A DNA stretch of 64,000 nt from Larus michahellis (taxonomy: Eukaryota; Chordata; Aves; Charadriiformes; Laridae): assembly GCF_964199755.1 (NCBI RefSeq), contig NC_133910.1:3742501-3806500 (forward strand), written 5' to 3'. This document shows positions 4,464 through 61,474 of the stretch, piece after piece. The translations under genes and the position numbers were made by a program. Numbering within the stretch: position 1 is the stretch's first letter; each line of letters starts with the position of its first letter. A model generated the notes under the pieces. It had not been told where the DNA came from, did no database searches, and saw only the letters and a program-made list of their open reading frames with translations.

Positions 4464-6661
4464 TTATAATGAATAAATGCCCCCCTGCCAGCCCCTCTGG
4501 GGTGGGTGGGGAAGTGGAAGGAAGGAAACTCAGGCAACGAGAGAGTCCCGACCACGTTACACCCTGATCAGCATGTGCAGAGGTGGCCAGAACAGCTGGG
4601 GTTTGTCAAGCAGCTCCTCACCTTCCTTTCTCGTGGAGGCCTGAAGGGTTTACAGGTACCTAAGGTGAAGGTCCTGGTCCTTGTCCCCTCCTTAGACCTG
4701 CTGGGACCAGGGGGTTTATGCCCAGGGCTGCCAATGCTCTCATTAAAGCCATCACAGCCTCGTGTTTGGCTGGATTAAATTCGTCATTACAGCAAACCTC
4801 CCCAGCTGACCTGGTAGGAGCAAGGCATCGGCACAGTAAGCCAAGACGTTGTTTAAATACTTGGAGCTCTGCTATCTAACAAGAATGACAAGAGATTACA
4901 TTAGGAAAAGGGCCGGCTATTTTAAGAGGGATCCATTTGCCAACTTCCCTGGCTGCAGAGGTCTTTAACGGTGCTGCAGGAATAGAAAGCATTGGACACA
5001 CATGGATCCTACGCGCCCAGCGAACCGCTGAGGGGGGGTTTGCAAAAGGCATAAAAAGCCCAGGCAGAGCATTTTGTGCTGAGTTAATTTTATGGGGGTG
5101 GCTGGGGAGCAGGACAGGGACAGGCACCTGGGGGGACACCAGAGGAACCACAGCTGCATTTTGCATTTGGGATGCTCTTCCCTTCCCCAGGGAAAGGGGG
5201 AGAAGGGTAAGTGTTACCAGCTGACCCTCTTTAAAAGCAAAGTAATTCCCATCCCACCCTGCCGGGGATGCTTTAAAACATCAGTGCTGGGGAGCTGTGT
5301 GCTGGTGCCTGGGCTCTGCTGGGGTTGGTGGGGTGCTCTGTAGCTGAATAAGCAGGACTAGAGGTAAGATGAGGATTTGTGGTGTTGAGAAGGTAGAAAA
5401 TCTCAAGATGTTTGGGCCAGAAGTTCTCTCTGCTTGGGTGTAGCTTACTGTATTGTGCTCATCCCTTGAGAGCCCAGGAAGGTGGGTGTCTGGAGGCCAC
5501 CGTGTCGAGGGTGTGAAGCACCTGGTTATTGGTAGCTTCCCCATCCTCTGTAGGAGCCTCCATCTGTGTTTTCAGAGTGAGTTTGGTTTAAATAGTGGTA
5601 TATTTGTCTGTGACTTGTAATGAGCTTAAAAAAAAATAATCAGCAATCCTTGTTTGAAAAGCAGAGCAACACGCAAGAAATCATTGAGGGTTTCTTTTCC
5701 TTCTTTCAGAAAGTGTAGCAGCAATGAAAGAGCGGTGATGGGCAAATAATAAAAGCCTTCTGTGTGGCTCACTCATACCAGGTAAAGTATAAAGCCCCAC
5801 TGATGCAGGGCTCAGGGTGGGCAGAAAATATTCCACCTGAGCAGCAGCAATTAGTGCACTTGGCTTTGTCTTTGTTGTGCTCTGTAAATATAATTCCGAA
5901 CAGCAGATAAGCTTCACCCAGACATAATATGACAAATATCCTTTTCTTCTGCCTCTGCTGGGAGGAGAACTTCTCTCTAGTTGTGCAGCTGTTGGTGGAA
6001 AATAGCTGGAATATGTTTCTTGGGAATTTGCGAACAGCAAATGTGGTCTGCAACATTAGCAAAAATAACTGTATGAATGAGTAAAAAAGGATTGGGGAGA
6101 ACATCCTCAACTATATCATGAACATTCCTTTGATGCAGACTTGAGTTGGAAGAAGTTGAGGAACTCTTGTGGCAAGAAAGCGTTTTGTTTTGTTGAGGAT
6201 GGCGCGTGTTTTCCCTCCTGCTCCAGCAGGGAGCTGCTTTTCTGCCTGTGGCGCAAATCTCCCAGAGCAGCCGCAGCTCCTCTGGGTCAAGTTCGGTACC
6301 TGAGGGGAAGCTGCAGCTGCGGAGCTTGGGGTGGAGAAAGAGCAGGAGCTGATGACTCGGGGGATGGATACGTGATGCTCAGCATCCGCACCCAGCGCGG
6401 GGACTGGAGTCGGGAAGTGCCGAGCTGCTGGCTGTTAAATGGGAGGCAAAAATGGGTTCAGGTGGGTCTGTGTCGATGCGCTTTGTGCCTAAGCTATCCC
6501 TGCATTTCATTTGGGTGTAAGTCCCCTTCTTGAACTCAAACGTGGCTAAATTGCTCAGCTGTGAGACCCCAATGTGCCCTGCTCCGCCCCAGGATTGGTT
6601 GTGTTTGGTGGTGGATGAGCAATCGATCCCCTGCCTTGCCTCTTGCTCACCCTGTATCAAG
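4464..6661. other. Intergenic sequence, no gene recognised
   Basis: Mixed-composition sequence with no recognisable exon, RNA gene or repeat family. Short open frames on both strands (for example minus 5681-6110) have no family resemblance and lack flanking splice or promoter support. Confidence 0.5.
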
Positions 6662-6765
6662 CCTTTGCGTGTCTTGGGGAGGTGGCGCCTTTGCGTGTCT
6701 TGGGGAGGTGGCGCCTTTGCGTGTCTTGGGGAGGTGGCGCCTTTGCGTGTCTTGGGGAGGTGGCG
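6662..6765. repeat. 26-bp minisatellite, four identical copies
   Basis: Four head-to-tail copies of a 26-bp unit (CCTTTGCGTGTCTTGGGG then AGGTGGCG) start at 6662, 6688, 6714 and 6740, followed by a degenerate partial unit. All four copies are identical by eye, which points to recent expansion or ongoing homogenisation. Each unit contains two CpGs. Two overlapping forward open frames reading through it merely repeat a short peptide and are not genes. Confidence 0.97.
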
Positions 6766-9700
6766 CGTTTTAACTAGATCCTCCTACCCATCCCTCTATA
6801 CATTCCTCTGTCATTCCTCTGCCTTCTCAGCAGCTGGAAGATATCTCTTTGCCTCAGTTTCCCCATCAGTAAAATGAGAACAGAACCTCCCAGTGGATTG
6901 GGTGGTCCTTTGTGCTCCGGACTTGCTTCCAGGTATTTGAAAACCTCACCCCAAGTCATTAACAGCTAATGAGGGTGCTGCTGTGCTGGGTCCTGTGTGT
7001 GCCTGTGGGAGGAAACCCTCCTGCTCTCATATGAAGACTGATAGAAAGCCAGGGATTTGGATCCGAACTCGTGAAGGCATTGGGGGAGACAAAAAGAGAG
7101 TCTGGTATAATATTGTTTTTTAAGAGGACAAAGCTTCTTCTGGAAAACATACTCAATTGTTTCGGCAGATATATATTTTTAGGGGTTTTTTTTGGTGGTG
7201 AAAGTACTATTGCAAACTTCATTAGCGCACTGCGAAGAAGGGAAAAGAAAACCGAATGACCTGGAAACTTTCCATCCTTGTCTCTCTGTGCAGCGTATCT
7301 GCTGGTAAAGGTGGTGGCAAACCCCCAGGCCGGGTGTGCTCTGGATTCAGTGCTCTGGCTGCCGAATGGATGTGGCTCTGGGATAATTAGCAGCCTCCCA
7401 TGCTGCTGTGCTGGGCACCTCCCAGGACACGGAAACCTCCCAGTATGGCTCTCCAGCTCTCCCATAACAGGAGACCCAGGGTCTGCAACTACAGACAAAT
7501 ACAGCCACCTCCTCTTTGGAGCATAACACTTTAAATGGTTTCTCTGCGCAGGGGTTCAGCTGTATGCAGACTCCTGCATCTCACTTCCTACGAGGGTTGT
7601 GTTTCTGTGTGTCTGGAAGGTGACGGTCCCTGTGCTGGGAGCTGCTTGCTGGCGTGGCAGCTCTGTTTCCTAGAAAAGCACTTGCCGGACCCTCTGCTGT
7701 TGCCTGAAGGCTGATCGCTGCCTCTGCGTTTGCCCTGACTGTGTGTGGAAACCTCCCCTGTGGGTGAAACACATTGGTTTTGGACGGTGCCTGGACCTCG
7801 AGGCCTACTGGCCTGCGCAGAATCAGTTTTCCTCCAATTATTTGCAATGTCTCCATAATCTTTCATAAGCTACATGCAGGAAAAAAGGACAAGGGCTGCA
7901 TGGCCCTGTTCAGTGAGGGTTTCCCTGCGCTTCCAGCATGGGATGGGAGATGCAGCTCCTGGTGCTGAGCCATCCTTGGACCCGTGCTGCACTGCCTGGC
8001 TGATCCCGGAGTCATCACTGCCCCATGGACTCTGCGGTGCCCGGCTCCCGCTGATAGCGGGCAGAGGATGGGGACAGAAAAGGGGTCCCTGGGAGCTGCT
8101 GCCTCCCCAAGCTGCGGGGGCGGCCGTCAGCCAGACCTGAAATGTTACATTTCTCTAGAACAACAGTTTTGCTGCATATTGGATTCTGTTAAAGGAATTC
8201 AATTTAGAAAACATTATGCCAGGGAGAGGAGGAGAAGGGCAAAACATTATGGCTAAATAATTTCAATTAACTATTCCAGACCTTTCTTGCTAATGCAGTT
8301 GAAATAAGTGCTGCCTGGTCTACAGATCTGCAGAACCAAGAGCTTCTCGCAGCATCAGCGAATGTAGCTTCGGCGATGTCTATGATGACTCCTTCCAGCT
8401 GAGGGTGGACCTAAGGACATGCTGTTTTGATGTTATTGAGCCTTAATTTTTGAAGCAAAACAGAGAAAGAAAAATCTGGACAGTGAAATAGAGCCCAGAT
8501 CCCTCTTATGCAGCCAGGCCTTGCTGCCACTTAACTTGGCACGTAGTACAATTTTCAAGCTAATTCTTAAATCAGTGTAAACACCCAAGTTTGTCCTAGA
8601 GCTAGGCGAATTATCTAACTCAATTCTGCTTTGGAAAAACAAGCCAGATCCAAATGCGAAGCTTTACCAGAAGCCTTTGGCCATCAACCATGCTTTTGAA
8701 AGCCAGCAGGTATTCATGCTAGAGAAAGTTAAATTCACTGTTCAGGTGATTGACTGTTCTTCATTGACCTTTTAAGTAATTGCCCTTGGTATTAAGACAC
8801 CAAGCAGTGTCAGGCTGCTTTCCTTACCCAGCTGCACTCCAGGCCAATTCCCAGATTTGGATGACAGAAATATTTACTCACAGTTGTGAGTGCTAGAAAT
8901 TCCTGGGACTTCAGTTCAAAATCAAAGGGAGCTCAAAGGTATGGAGGTTGGGGAGTGCAGTAAAGCCCTGACAAACCTGTCTGGGCTTTATCCTCACCTT
9001 ATCTCTGCCAGCTCTAAATTCTGCAGGGAACGTCATCCCTGAGCTTCCCAGCCAACTCTCATTCCTTTAGTCCCCTTCTTTGACATCCTAAAAAAATGAC
9101 AATGAAGAGTTGAAAACTGCTTTTTTTCCCCCCCCTCAAATGTTTACATGCCTCCCTGATTCACTTGTCTAAATATGTCGCCCCTCTAGTTGCTTTCCTT
9201 TCTGGTGTGAAGTCTTAATTTGGTTGTGAATTCTGTGGGGCAAAGACCATGTGGCTGTATAAGTTCGTGACCTGGGTGGTTACTGATCAAGTGACCTCAG
9301 AGGGTGCAGTATAAAATCTCAGACCTTTCAGTACTTTTCTTCTCTAGCATTGTGGAAAGCGCTGGCTTTCTGCTTGCTCTCCTCCATCTGTTGTCTTCCT
9401 ACTCTTCTCCATATTTTCATTCTCTAACCTGGTATTTGTCTCGCGCCTCTCATGGGTGGGGCTTTCTCCTGTATCTGCTTGGGGGGGGAACAAAAAAAGC
9501 TTTGATTTTCCTCTTAGCAGGAAAAGCAGCTCCGGCACAGGGTGCCCTGACCTTGTGCTGCTCAGACCCTGCTGGGGCTCAGTGTTTAAGGACAAACTGT
9601 TGTTACTGTTTTACCAAAAAAAAAAAAAAAATTCAACATGTGGCACTAGATCTAGGGACTTTTTGCTTTTCTGGCCCCTCTACCTCCTGTCACCTACCCC

Positions 9701-18300: not shown

Positions 18301-18416
18301 TTCCCCCCCACTCCTTCATGGGGGCTCTGACCTCTTCATACTCCCCCATCTGCAGCAAGTGGAAGCGTAGCCCCTGTGTGTGCCTTGGGCTGCTGCTGCT
18401 CCTGGCAAGGACATGG

Positions 18417-18541
18417 GATCACAGAATGGTTCGGATTGGAAGGGACCTTAAAGATCATCTAGTTCCAACCCCCCTGCCCTGGGCAGGGACACCTCCCACT
18501 AGAGCAGGCTGCTCAAAGCCTCGTCCAGCCTGGCCTTGAAA
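18417..18541 (-). mobile_element. CR1 LINE 3' fragment, about 125 bp, inverted
   Basis: Begins ATCACAGAATGGTTCGGATT then GGAAGGGACC (reverse complement of a CR1 3' end), continues through GATCATCTAGTTCC and GGGCAGGGACACCTCCCACT, and stops at 'tggccttgaaac'. Only the last ~125 bp of the element are present, so this is a strongly 5'-truncated copy on the minus strand. Confidence 0.93.
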
Positions 18542-23715: not shown

Positions 23716-23786
23716 ACGGCAGGGGGGGTGGAACTAGGTGATCTTTAAGGTCCCTTCCAACTCGAACCATTCTATGATTCTATCAT
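23716..23786 (+). mobile_element. CR1 LINE 3' fragment, about 70 bp
   Basis: Reads GGCAGGGGGGGTGGAACTAG, GTGATCTTTAAGGTCCCTTCC, and ends CCATTCTATGATTCTATCATT, the CR1 3' terminus with its ATTCTATG-type tail repeats, on the plus strand. Only the extreme 3' end is retained. Confidence 0.9.
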
Positions 23787-27291: not shown

Positions 27292-27606
27292 ATGCGTCTT
27301 CCTCTCGCCTCGGCTGCCAGTTTGGATTGTAGCGCCCGGCTCCGTGCACTGAGAGAATGGCTCGGTTTGGGGATGATCTGCCAACCCGCTATGGAGGTGG
27401 AGGGCCGGCCGGGGCTGGAAGAGGGAGCAGCCGGCAAGGTGGCCCCCAAGCCGGCCAAAGGATGTATAAGCAGTCGATGGCTCAGAGGGCCAGGACTATG
27501 GCTCTCTACAACCCCATCCCTGTCAAACAGAACTGCTTCACAGTCAACAGATCCCTCTTCATCTTCAGTGAAGATAATGTTATACGGAAATATGCCAAGA
27601 GAATAA
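27292..27606 (+). other. Candidate overlapping upstream ORF 2, 104 codons
   Basis: An ATG at 27292-27294 (G at -3, C at +4) lies 65 bases before the CACNA1B ATG in a different frame. It stays open through the channel start codon and almost all of exon 1, stopping at 27604-27606, ten bases before the exon end. If present in the mRNA it would compete with the channel start codon, which has a stronger context (A at -3, G at +4). The peptide has no recognisable domain, so coding function is not claimed. Confidence 0.3.
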
Positions 27607-27616
27607 CAGAATGGCC
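27357..27616 (+). CDS. CACNA1B: CACNA1B exon 1: N-terminal cytosolic part of Cav2.2
   Basis: This exon encodes the first 86 residues plus two bases of codon 87 of the pore-forming alpha-1B subunit of the presynaptic N-type calcium channel. The start ATG has a strong context (GAGAGAATGG). The protein begins [14 protein letters not shown], then a short Gly/Ala/Gln-rich variable stretch, then the conserved block [20 protein letters not shown] (about residues 37-56). In mammalian Cav2.2 this block carries residues needed for G-protein beta-gamma modulation. [20 protein letters not shown] and [11 protein letters not shown] follow, leading to IS1. The VKQNCF and KRITEW residues fit CACNA1B better than CACNA1A (VRQNCL, KKITEW) or CACNA1E. 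The exon ends in phase 2 and is followed directly by ATATCCTTT, a U12-type donor. The N-terminal variable part looks somewhat shorter than in mammals. Paralogue identity is judged from residues, not an alignment. Confidence 0.92.
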
Positions 27617-27625
27617 ATATCCTTT
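27617..27625 (+). other. CACNA1B: U12-type 5' splice site
   Basis: ATATCCTTT, a complete match to the minor-spliceosome AT-AC donor, directly after the last two bases (CC) of a proline codon. Confidence 0.95.
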
Positions 27626-27719
27626 CGGGGAGGGTGTGTGGGCACGGTGGGGAAGGTGGGGAGGGGGAGAGCGAGACTGGGGGAAAGAGACGCCCCATGT
27701 CAGCTAAGGATGAGTGGCT

Positions 27720-27910
27720 GGTGCTAACGTAGAAGTGCGTGTGTGATCCAGTGTGTGCAATGGGTGTGTGTGACATGGAGCTGTGTGTCCGACATAATGT
27801 ATGGCCGTGTAGCTGGGTATCATAGGAAATTGCTTCTGTGTGAACAGTGTAGTGTGCTTTCGACTATGCTGGGGCGCGTGTAAGACATACATGCATTTCA
27901 GTGTGTGTTT
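27720..27910. repeat. GT-rich low-complexity sequence in intron 1
   Basis: Dispersed GTGTGTG and TGTGTGT blocks separated by short unique sequence, probably a decayed dinucleotide repeat. The long minus-strand open frame across it (27704-27892) is a His/Thr-rich shadow. Confidence 0.7.
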
Positions 27911-29042
27911 AGGTGTGACATATACATTTACATAGATTTACATTTCCTACAATTTAAGATAAATGCAAAGCATTCTGTGAGATTCATGCTAATGAATCCT
28001 GATTCTTATTTCCATCTTAGAGCCTTTCAACTCTTCTTTCTCACTCTGAATAGAAGAAGGAACGTGGGATAAAAATGGTGACACCTTAGCATTAAAGCTG
28101 CAGTGATAGTAGAGATATTGATAGCCAGGGTACGTTGTGAATCCCATTAATACAATCATTGCAGCTAGGTTTTTTAGTACATCACCTCCTAAACACATTA
28201 GAATCAATATGAATCTTGTCACTTTGATTAGGTGCATAGCCTAAGCTTAGTCTGTACTAAAAAAAATTTAAAAATAAAAAAGAAAAGCTTTGTGGCAGAG
28301 CGAGGCATTAAGTCAGGAGGAGGCTCATCTGCTGTGTTGTGAAAGGGGCAGATGCTTTCTGTCTCAGCACCAGCTCCCAGGCCAAGTGAGCTGCAGAGAT
28401 CTTCCTCAGAAGGGGGCTTTGCTTGTAATGATGCACACAGTGGGGTTGTAAGCCATGAGAAAAGGGAAGCAGACTATTTGAGGTTACCAGGGAGTAGATA
28501 CAGTGTGTGAGTGCGTGCGCGTGTTTGTGTGCAGGAGTGCATTACACTGGTGATCTCAAGGGAGCTGGTTGTTTTCTTTTCATTTGATATCACACACCTA
28601 TTAGTCCTCAGCTAACAGCAGCAAGGCCTCCTTCCATCCTCCTAGCAACACTTTCCATTGCTATAGAGGCCAGCTCCCATTCAGGCTTCCCCAGTCTTCA
28701 TTTCCTTGAGGGGGGCTAACAGGAAAAAAAATACACCAGTAGAGTGCATGTACTTCCCTTTCCCCCTGAATGCGCATGCATATTCATTTTTCTGTCCATA
28801 TTATAAATTCACAGGGGTTGCTGTACTTCCTCATCCATTTCTCCTGCATTCAAGTCGGAATAAACAAGCTCCGAAGCTGGGCTGGCAGGCAGAGCATCGT
28901 GTTCCCTGCCAGGCCAGACGCAGTCTAGCCCTCGCCTGTCTCTGGGGCGACTCGTCTGCGTCGTTTCTCGGGAAGTGTGGAGCGGGGACCCACAGCGCTG
29001 CGGCTGCCGCGAAGCCGCCGGCCGCTCCCCACGGCGGGGCAG

Positions 29043-29063
29043 CACGCTGTCCCTGGTGCTGAA
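29043..29063 (-). promoter_or_regulatory. RE1/NRSE element, REST binding site
   Basis: On the minus strand this reads TTCAGCACC-AG-GGACAGCG-TG. Both RE1 half-sites are perfect; against the canonical 21-bp RE1 only a variable central base and the last two bases differ (18 of 21 identical). REST (NRSF) is a zinc-finger repressor that silences neuronal genes in non-neuronal cells by recruiting CoREST, SIN3 and histone deacetylases. The position in intron 1 of a neuron-specific channel gene is typical of functional RE1 sites. REST occupancy itself is inferred. Confidence 0.88.
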
Positions 29064-29188
29064 CGGGAGCTGCCCGCGGTGCTGAACGGGAGCTGCCCGC
29101 GGTGCTGAACGGGAGCTGCCCGCGGTGCTGAGAGGAGCCGTCCGCGGTGCTGAGCGGAGCTCCCCGCGGTGCTGAGCGGAGCGCGGCT
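29055..29188. repeat. 22-23 bp minisatellite built from RE1-like motifs
   Basis: Six copies of a unit beginning GGTGCTGA start at 29055, 29078, 29101, 29124, 29146 and 29168. The first four starts are 23 bp apart and the rest 22 bp. Copies 1-3 are identical over most of the unit (GGTGCTGAACGGGAGC then TGCCCGC); later copies diverge (GGTGCTGAGAGGAGCC, GGTGCTGAGCGGAGC). Read on the minus strand each unit recreates an RE1-like site. Besides the strong one at 29043-29063, motifs lie at 29066-29086 and 29089-29109 (18 of 21), 29112-29132 and 29134-29154 (17 of 21), and 29156-29176 (16 of 21). All face the same way. Long minus-strand open frames here (28809-29326) are readings of the repeat and not genes. 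Confidence 0.9.
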
Positions 29189-29792
29189 CCGCCCTGGGCT
29201 CGGCAGGGTTCGGGACTGGAGATGAGGGCGAAAGGCAAGGGGGCACCTAGAATCGGGTTTGCCTCCTTTCCCGTGAGATCGGTTCCATCCTACATCCCGA
29301 CAGGGCACTGATGGTTTGATTCTCACCAGGAGCGGGCATTGCGATCTAGCAGTAATTCATGTTTTGGACCTGCATAGACACTCTAAATTGAACTTTTCTA
29401 GCCCATCGCTTATTTACACTATGCGCTCAAGTTAAATGACAGGGAATTTCTGAAGAATAATTCAGCAGATGGCATTCAGTTATTTTGGGGCAGTTTAGCT
29501 TATCAATCTTATTTAAAAATAATAATTATTAATAGCTTTTTGTTTCCTTTGGACCTTTTGCTTTCTTGTTCCCAAATTCCTTGAGCAGCTCAGATTCCGT
29601 GTAAGTCACCAACTTTCTCAAGGAAGAGAACAAATTTCCTACTTTTCTTCCAAAGACACCCCAGGAAGAACTGAGGAAGTCAAGGAGACTAAATGTCTTC
29701 AGAAAAGACGAGAGATCATAGAATGCTCAACTAATGTAACCATTTAGGTAGAAATGGGATTTGGATGAGGTTCTCCTTGTGTTGTCTGTGTC

Positions 29793-36715
<6,923 letters not shown>

Positions 36716-57064: not shown

Positions 57065-57303
57065 GCTAGAGCGGGGCAGGTTTAGGCTAGACATGGGGAA
57101 GAAGTACTTTAAGGATGGTGAGACACTGGCCCAGGTTGCCCAGAGAGGGGTTGGAGGCCCCATCCCTGGAGACATTCAAGGCCAGGCTGGATGAGGCTCT
57201 GAGCGACCTGATCTAGTTGAAGATGTCCCTGCTGACTGCAGGGGGGTTGGACTGGATGGCCTTTAGAGGTCCCTTCCAACCCAACACATTCTATGGTTCT
57301 GTG
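57065..57303 (+). mobile_element. CR1 LINE 3' fragment, about 240 bp, in intron 3
   Basis: Reads GGGGCAGGTTTAGGCTAGAC, then CACTGGCCCAGGTTGCCCAG, and ends GGTCCCTTCCAACCCAACAC then ATTCTATGGTTCTGTG, a CR1 3' end on the plus strand, the same strand as the host gene. It differs from the 10248 and 60735 copies (for example GGCCTTTAGAGGTCC near its end), so it is a different subfamily. 5'-truncated and non-coding. Confidence 0.92.
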
Positions 57304-60734: not shown

Positions 60735-61474
60735 GAATGGATTGAGAGCAGCCCTGAGGAGAAGGACTTGGGGGTGTTGCTGGATAAGAAGCTCGACAGG
60801 AGCTGGCAACTTGCACTCGTGGCCCAGAAAGCCAACCGCAGCCTGGGCTGCATCTCCAGCAACGTGGCCAGCAGGGCGAGGGAGGGGATTCTGCCCCTCT
60901 GCCCTGCTCTGGGGAGACCCCCCTGCAGTGCTGCCTCCAGCTCTGGGGCCATCAACATACATGGGACCCCATGGGGACCCCAAGAGGTCCATGTCCAAAT
61001 GGACATGGGCCTGTTGGAGCAGGTCCAGAGGAGGCCCACAAAGATGATTAGAGGGCTGGAGGCCCTCTGCTGTGAGGACAGGCTGAGAGAGCTGGGGGGG
61101 TTCAGCCTGGAGAAGAGAAGGCTCCGGGGAAACCTTAAAGCCCCTTCCAGTCCCTAAAGGGTCTCCAGGAAAGCTGGGGAGGGACTCTGGATCAGGGAGG
61201 GAAACCATAGGACGAGGGGGAATGGTTTCAATCTGGAAGAGGGGAGATTTAGATTGGATATCAGGAAGAAATTCTTCACTGTGAGGGTGGTGAGGCACTG
61301 GCCCAGGTTGCCCAGAGAAACTGTTGAGGACACATCCCTGGAGGGGTTCAAGGCCAGGTTGGACGGGGCTTGGAGCAACCTGTTCTGGTGGGAGGTGTCC
61401 CTGCCCAGGGCAGGGGGTTGGAACCAGATGATCTTTAAGGTCCCTTCCAACTGTAACCATTCTATGATTCTATG
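60735..61474 (+). mobile_element. CR1 LINE fragment, about 740 bp, in intron 3
   Basis: The longest CR1 copy in the window, plus strand. Its left part encodes a decayed ORF2 (reverse transcriptase) C-terminal region: EEKDLGVLLDKKLDRSWQLA, AQKANRSLGCISSNVASRAR, then LLEQVQRRPTKMIRGLEALC and [17 protein letters not shown]. The 3' UTR block and terminus CCATTCTATGATTCTATGAG follow. About 160 codons remain open from upstream flanking sequence to 61157, but the endonuclease and catalytic polymerase motifs are missing, so it cannot move by itself. Same subfamily as 10248-10829. Confidence 0.96.

Follow-up and report, generated by a model that had tools for sequence, protein, structure and literature searches.

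The locus studied here raises the question of whether a minisatellite can multiply a neuronal silencer, since in the first intron of a calcium channel gene of the gull Larus michahellis six successive repeat units resemble an RE1 (NRSE), the binding site of the repressor REST. The window, i.e., the whole stretch of DNA that was analyzed, comprises 64,000 nucleotides (64 kb). Its gene features that frame the array are the following:

27357..27616, plus strand: coding part of CACNA1B exon 1, 260 nt from the ATG, by CaV2 comparison
27617..29814, plus strand: intron 1, AT-AC (U12-type), with the donor ATATCCTT at 27617, a branch-like TTCTTTAAC at 29793-29801 and the acceptor AC at 29813-29814
29815..29920, plus strand: CACNA1B exon 2, 106 nt, by CaV2 comparison

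CACNA1B is the best name for the gene because exons 2 and 3 are identical to human CaV2.2 (82/82, against 80/82 for CaV2.1; bit scores of 241 vs. 227.5), despite an exon 1 that is slightly closer to CaV2.1 than to CaV2.2 (129.5 vs. 124.3 bits). Together with the positions of exons 1 and 2, this bears out the gene and the intron to which the initial annotation had assigned the array. Exon 1 is mosaic-looking, as it starts like human CaV2.1 (MARFGD...) and ends like CaV2.2. Synteny with EHMT1 was also considered as support for the identity of the gene and was set aside, because a GLP SET-domain query had no match in the 64-kb window; the exons therefore carry the identity by themselves. Exons 1 and 2 join in frame into a CaV2 N-terminus, and among the three acceptors tried this was the case only with the AC at 29813-29814, with the branch-like element about 13 bases upstream of it. 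AT-AC introns are known in voltage-gated channel genes, and here it is such a minor-spliceosome intron that houses the REST-like array, which starts 1,427 bp past exon 1 and ends 638 bp short of exon 2.

Concerning the array itself, both strands of the window were scanned with the RE1 consensus at a cut-off of 15/21 or better, or of no more than a single miss to the degenerate 17-mer. Nine 21-mers passed, and six of these are the units of the array, all on the minus strand and with start-to-start steps of 23, 23, 23, 22 and 22:

29043..29063, minus strand: RE1 unit 0, TTCAGCACCAGGGACAGCGTG, 18/21 matches, exact match to the 17-bp consensus NTYAGMRCCNNRGMSAG
29066..29086, minus strand: RE1-like unit 1, 18/21, one core miss (A14G)
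29089..29109, minus strand: RE1-like unit 2, 18/21, same sequence as unit 1, one core miss (A14G)
29112..29132, minus strand: RE1-like unit 3, 17/21, one core miss (A14G)
29134..29154, minus strand: RE1-like unit 4, 17/21, A14 kept, one core miss (A16G)
29156..29176, minus strand: RE1-like unit 5, 16/21, with A14G as its single miss to the degenerate consensus and also C15G, which the consensus permits
29055..29179, no strand assigned: minisatellite detected by TRF, 23-bp unit, 5.5 copies, 87% matches, consensus GGTGCTGAACGGGAGCTGCCCGC

The rescan thus returned the coordinates, the orientation, the spacing of 22-23 bp and the 16-18 matches out of 21 that had been claimed for these motifs. Being repeated head-to-tail with a TRF period of 23 and 5.5 copies, the array is a minisatellite in the usual sense (unit of roughly 10-60 bp), and it includes three exact copies of a 23-mer at 29055-29123. 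Each repeat unit equals a whole RE1 plus 1-2 bp, so the gap between neighboring 21-bp sites is 1-2 bp only, and the consensus scan supports the view that the minisatellite unit is itself almost an RE1. The spacing had also been described as close to two helical turns, which does not stand: with 10.5 bp per turn, a step of 22-23 bp overshoots two full turns by about 34 or 69 degrees, and the sites therefore wind round the helix. Apart from this array, the window holds a second minisatellite upstream of CACNA1B (6661-6770; 26-bp unit, 4.2 copies, 98% matches). It also holds five matches (0-2 mismatches; 0.16 expected) to two copies of ATTCTRTG, the tail repeat of the CR1 retrotransposon, at 61459-61474, 57288-57303, 23769-23784, 18412-18427 and 1095-1110; such matches are in keeping with a bird or another reptile.

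The reading that we favor, with a probability of roughly 0.5, is that an RE1 silencer in CACNA1B intron 1 has been multiplied into 23-bp tandem copies, of which a strong first site and weaker helpers would act together in silencing the gene outside neurons. The quality of the single sites bears directly on it. According to the 17-bp consensus quoted in PMC4430910, with a gap of 2 bp between the half-sites (the canonical RE1/NRSE), unit 0 is the only one of the six to match, while the other five carry one core miss each (A14G in four of them and A16G in one). Unit 0 had been called a near-perfect RE1, which is true of its core, whereas three non-core positions (11, 20 and 21) are off the consensus used. 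A REST matrix was derived from Table 1 in PMC1794552, whose 16 rows contain 14 distinct sites (two rows repeat the sequence of another row); this matrix is a small one, and the sites behind it were predicted in the vicinity of miRNA genes, with binding support for some only. At a pseudocount of 2, units 0 to 5 score 23.0, 24.7, 24.7, 22.9, 22.4 and 19.7 bits, and these are the six top scores in the 64-kb window, with the seventh place at 13.7 bits; the gap from sixth to seventh is 7.1 bits at pseudocount 1 and 4.9 at pseudocount 4. Leave-one-out scoring of the 14 tabulated sites gives a wide range (10.7 to 29.6, median 24.5), inside which all six units fall, two of them above the median (pseudocount 2). 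Whether only the first motif passes a threshold, a check raised by the initial annotation, was hence answered in two ways, as the exact 17-mer singles out unit 0 and the 14-site matrix makes all six stand out in the window.

When only the core positions named in PMC1794552 (2-9 and 12-17) are scored, unit 0 is the best at 24.1, followed by 19.8, 19.8, 19.8, 19.3 and 16.6 for the others, while on the full 21-bp matrix the units at 29066 and 29089 are slightly above it (24.7 vs. 23.0). The ordered decay of the later units is true for the match counts (18, 18, 18, 17, 17, 16). Five of the six units have G at core position 14 or 16, whereas the 14 tabulated sites show 10 A, 3 C, 1 T and no G in column 14 and 14 A in column 16; as G is absent from both columns, the copies are likely weaker. 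A possible, though less probable, account is that the first site works alone, and that the other five are by-products of the minisatellite with a broken right half-site, unbound or too weakly bound. It agrees with the restriction of the exact 17-bp consensus to unit 0, with the lead of that unit in core score over the 16.6-19.8 of the rest, and with MPRAduo, a human reporter assay in which, as described in PMC9903721, weak RE1 motifs below a score threshold (20.86, obtained with FIMO and JASPAR MA0138.2, a matrix other than the 14-site one) did not silence. It fits less well with units 1 and 2, which equal or exceed unit 0 on the full 21-bp matrix. No pair of half-sites 7-9 bp apart, as in a non-canonical RE1, was found in the array; at gaps of 0-30 (left at least 8/9, right at least 5/6), half-site pairs occurred only at gaps of 2, 24 and 25.

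The pattern of change among the units is relevant to the same alternative and to the origin of the array. Across the six units the left half-site (positions 2-9) shows no variation, as nine of the 21 columns vary and none of them falls in 2-9 (post hoc P 0.0024), which would argue against the first site working alone; this value is probably inflated, since the right half of unit 0, just beyond the TRF-delimited repeat, is likely to lie past the repeat edge. Among the five copies alone, with four variable columns, the sparing is not significant (P 0.12), in agreement with that alternative. Given this P value and the post hoc nature of both, left half-site sparing was not relied on as a sign of selection. 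Unit 0 stands apart from the copies at position 14 and also at positions 10, 11, 19, 20 and 21, as can happen in an edge unit.

A unit made of a whole RE1 plus 1-2 bp fits the tandem duplication of an RE1-bearing stretch. Judging from their tandem form, the copies would have been produced from a 23-bp stretch holding one RE1, by slippage or unequal exchange, after which substitutions would have taken one core A:T pair from each copy; it is plausible, as initially proposed, that a functional RE1 seeded the repeat. Position 14 is the consensus A in two units, 0 and 4, and G in the remaining ones (4/6). The A shared by the first and fifth units would fit an ancestral unit with the full consensus, although the majority of G leaves the polarity of the change ambiguous. 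If an ancestor with A is assumed, the changes of A or T in the five copies would all lead to G or C (positions 1, 14 and 16), which, over these three columns, fits the prediction of biased gene conversion for repeats rich in G+C.

Chance was evaluated with dinucleotide-preserving shuffles. Over 300 shuffles of the window, the best 21-mer matched at 14 positions in 101 shuffles, at 15 in 169, at 16 in 29 and at 17 in one, and an 18/21 match was reached in none of the 300; the mean count of 21-mers with at least 16 matches was 0.10, compared with six observed. An exact match to the 17-mer consensus was present in 9 of 200 whole-window shuffles, which makes the exact match of unit 0, taken alone, weaker evidence, and in 3 of 5000 when only the local stretch of 341 bp was shuffled. 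The top matrix score over 300 shuffles was 22.2 (in one shuffle), above the weakest unit (19.7) and below the best (24.7). The units, being copies of one another, do not count as six independent events, and what they provide is a single good RE1 together with a good RE1-like repeat unit; the six RE1-like units are nevertheless confirmed as a genuine feature of the sequence. The same numbers, and the composition of the surrounding stretch, have to be weighed for two further explanations:

28880..29220, no strand assigned: stretch rich in G+C and CpG that surrounds the array (GC 0.73, CpG observed/expected 0.89, 40 CpG)

G+C-rich minisatellites are common in bird genomes. It is unlikely that the array is simply one of these, with no REST function and a fortuitous likeness to RE1: the richness of the stretch in G+C and CpG, an exact 17-mer that is not very rare per 64 kb and the single shuffle scoring 22.2 are all compatible with such an origin, while the failure of all 300 shuffles to reach 18/21 counts against it, and so does the location in the first intron of a channel gene specific to neurons, whose mammalian counterpart, Cacna1b, is reported to carry an RE1 (PMC12108343, citing Johnson 2006). 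An intronic CpG-rich element, methylation-sensitive or serving another factor, with RE1 likeness as a secondary trait, would account for GC and CpG observed/expected values above both flanks (immediately downstream, 0.416 and 0.61; immediately upstream, 0.465 and 0.30) and is very improbable in view of an RE1 likeness far above the shuffled background.

Returning to the favored reading of a strong first site with weaker helpers, REST is known to bind RE1 directionally, its zinc fingers 7-8 taking the left half and its zinc fingers 3-5 the right half, as stated in PMC8096226. Unit 0 has both half-sites, whereas the copies have a complete left half-core and a right half with one miss. In REST-expressing cells, REST would thus bind the first site through both half-sites and recruit co-repressors, and this recruitment would keep CACNA1B silent outside neurons. 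The weaker copies might offer one or a few extra binding events, or places for rebinding, and so make silencing stronger or steadier than with a single site; a fully loaded row of six REST molecules is not envisaged. In the experiments described in PMC8096226, a CELSR3 probe with four tandem half-sites gave two shifted bands, and the tandem sites of PCDH-gamma-a did likewise, which indicates that more than one REST can occupy a tandem array; the sites there are 9 bp apart, against 1-2 bp here, and full loading is therefore doubtful. According to PMC3531662, a four-site cassette in zebrafish suppressed expression in skin and notochord more than a two-site one, and expression in the brain was suppressed too. 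On the strength of these tandem-binding and cassette results, an anchor site with weak helpers is preferred over the anchor alone. The crowded row of REST suggested by the initial annotation appears doubtful, with five of the six sites bearing a core miss and 1-2 bp between 21-bp sites. We regard as quite unlikely the more far-reaching version, in which the minisatellite would be a native RE1 platform with neighboring REST molecules on several sites, copy number and the G+C-ward decay of the cores would set the strength of CACNA1B silencing, and repeat length would act as a heritable dial of the N-type channel between lineages or individuals.

Should the copies be bound, nature would have provided, within one intron, a dosage series for a silencer site that is well understood. 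REST occupancy and silencing could then be tested against site number at the tightest possible spacing, and so could the question of whether repeat expansion alters how a presynaptic calcium channel gene is expressed. With binding at the first site only, the locus would be an ordinary RE1 beside a decaying repeat. Among the open-licence papers listed for tandem or minisatellite RE1s, judged by titles and abstract openings, no description of an RE1 minisatellite in CACNA1B was found. The PGBD5 paper (PMC3902484), considered as a precedent, was set aside since its consulted portion is not about repeated RE1s.

The statement that RE1 sites usually occur singly is roughly right, with the qualification that clusters are in print: PMC1794552 lists more than one site for 75 of 566 predicted REST target genes, NSF having four in less than 100 bp. 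With tandem or clustered RE1s published for NSF, CELSR3 and PCDH-gamma, and REST at the MIR137 VNTR, the general principle of more than one RE1 near a target is known; what seems unusual here is a repeat unit that is almost exactly one RE1, present six times, in a bird-type CACNA1B. The NSF cluster (Wu and Xie, 2006; PMC1794552) resembles the array in packing several predicted NRSEs into a short stretch of a neuronal gene, but it consists of four sites predicted in mammals with conservation, whereas six units in one bird sequence are described here. CELSR3 and PCDH-gamma-a (PMC8096226) share the tandem half-sites in one orientation and the neuronal gene; the reported arrangement is left-11bp-right with 9 bp between sites, in contrast to a 2-bp gap, 1-2 bp between sites and six units, and multiple REST molecules were bound there in vitro. 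The MIR137 VNTR (PMC4393679) is likewise a tandem repeat with a predicted REST site, and its allele is reported to alter reporter activity and the response to REST isoforms; it differs in its 15-bp unit, its position at an internal microRNA promoter and its 4-12 copies in people, compared with a 23-bp unit that is almost a whole RE1. Engineered cassettes, namely REx2/REx4 (PMC3531662) and 2xNRSE (PMC3529185), also carry head-to-tail NRSEs and silence outside the nervous system, but as described they are man-made, with exact consensus cores and, for REx2, a spacer of 27 bp. Finally, the RE1 of mammalian Cacna1b, as cited in PMC12108343, corresponds to the avian array in both gene and factor.
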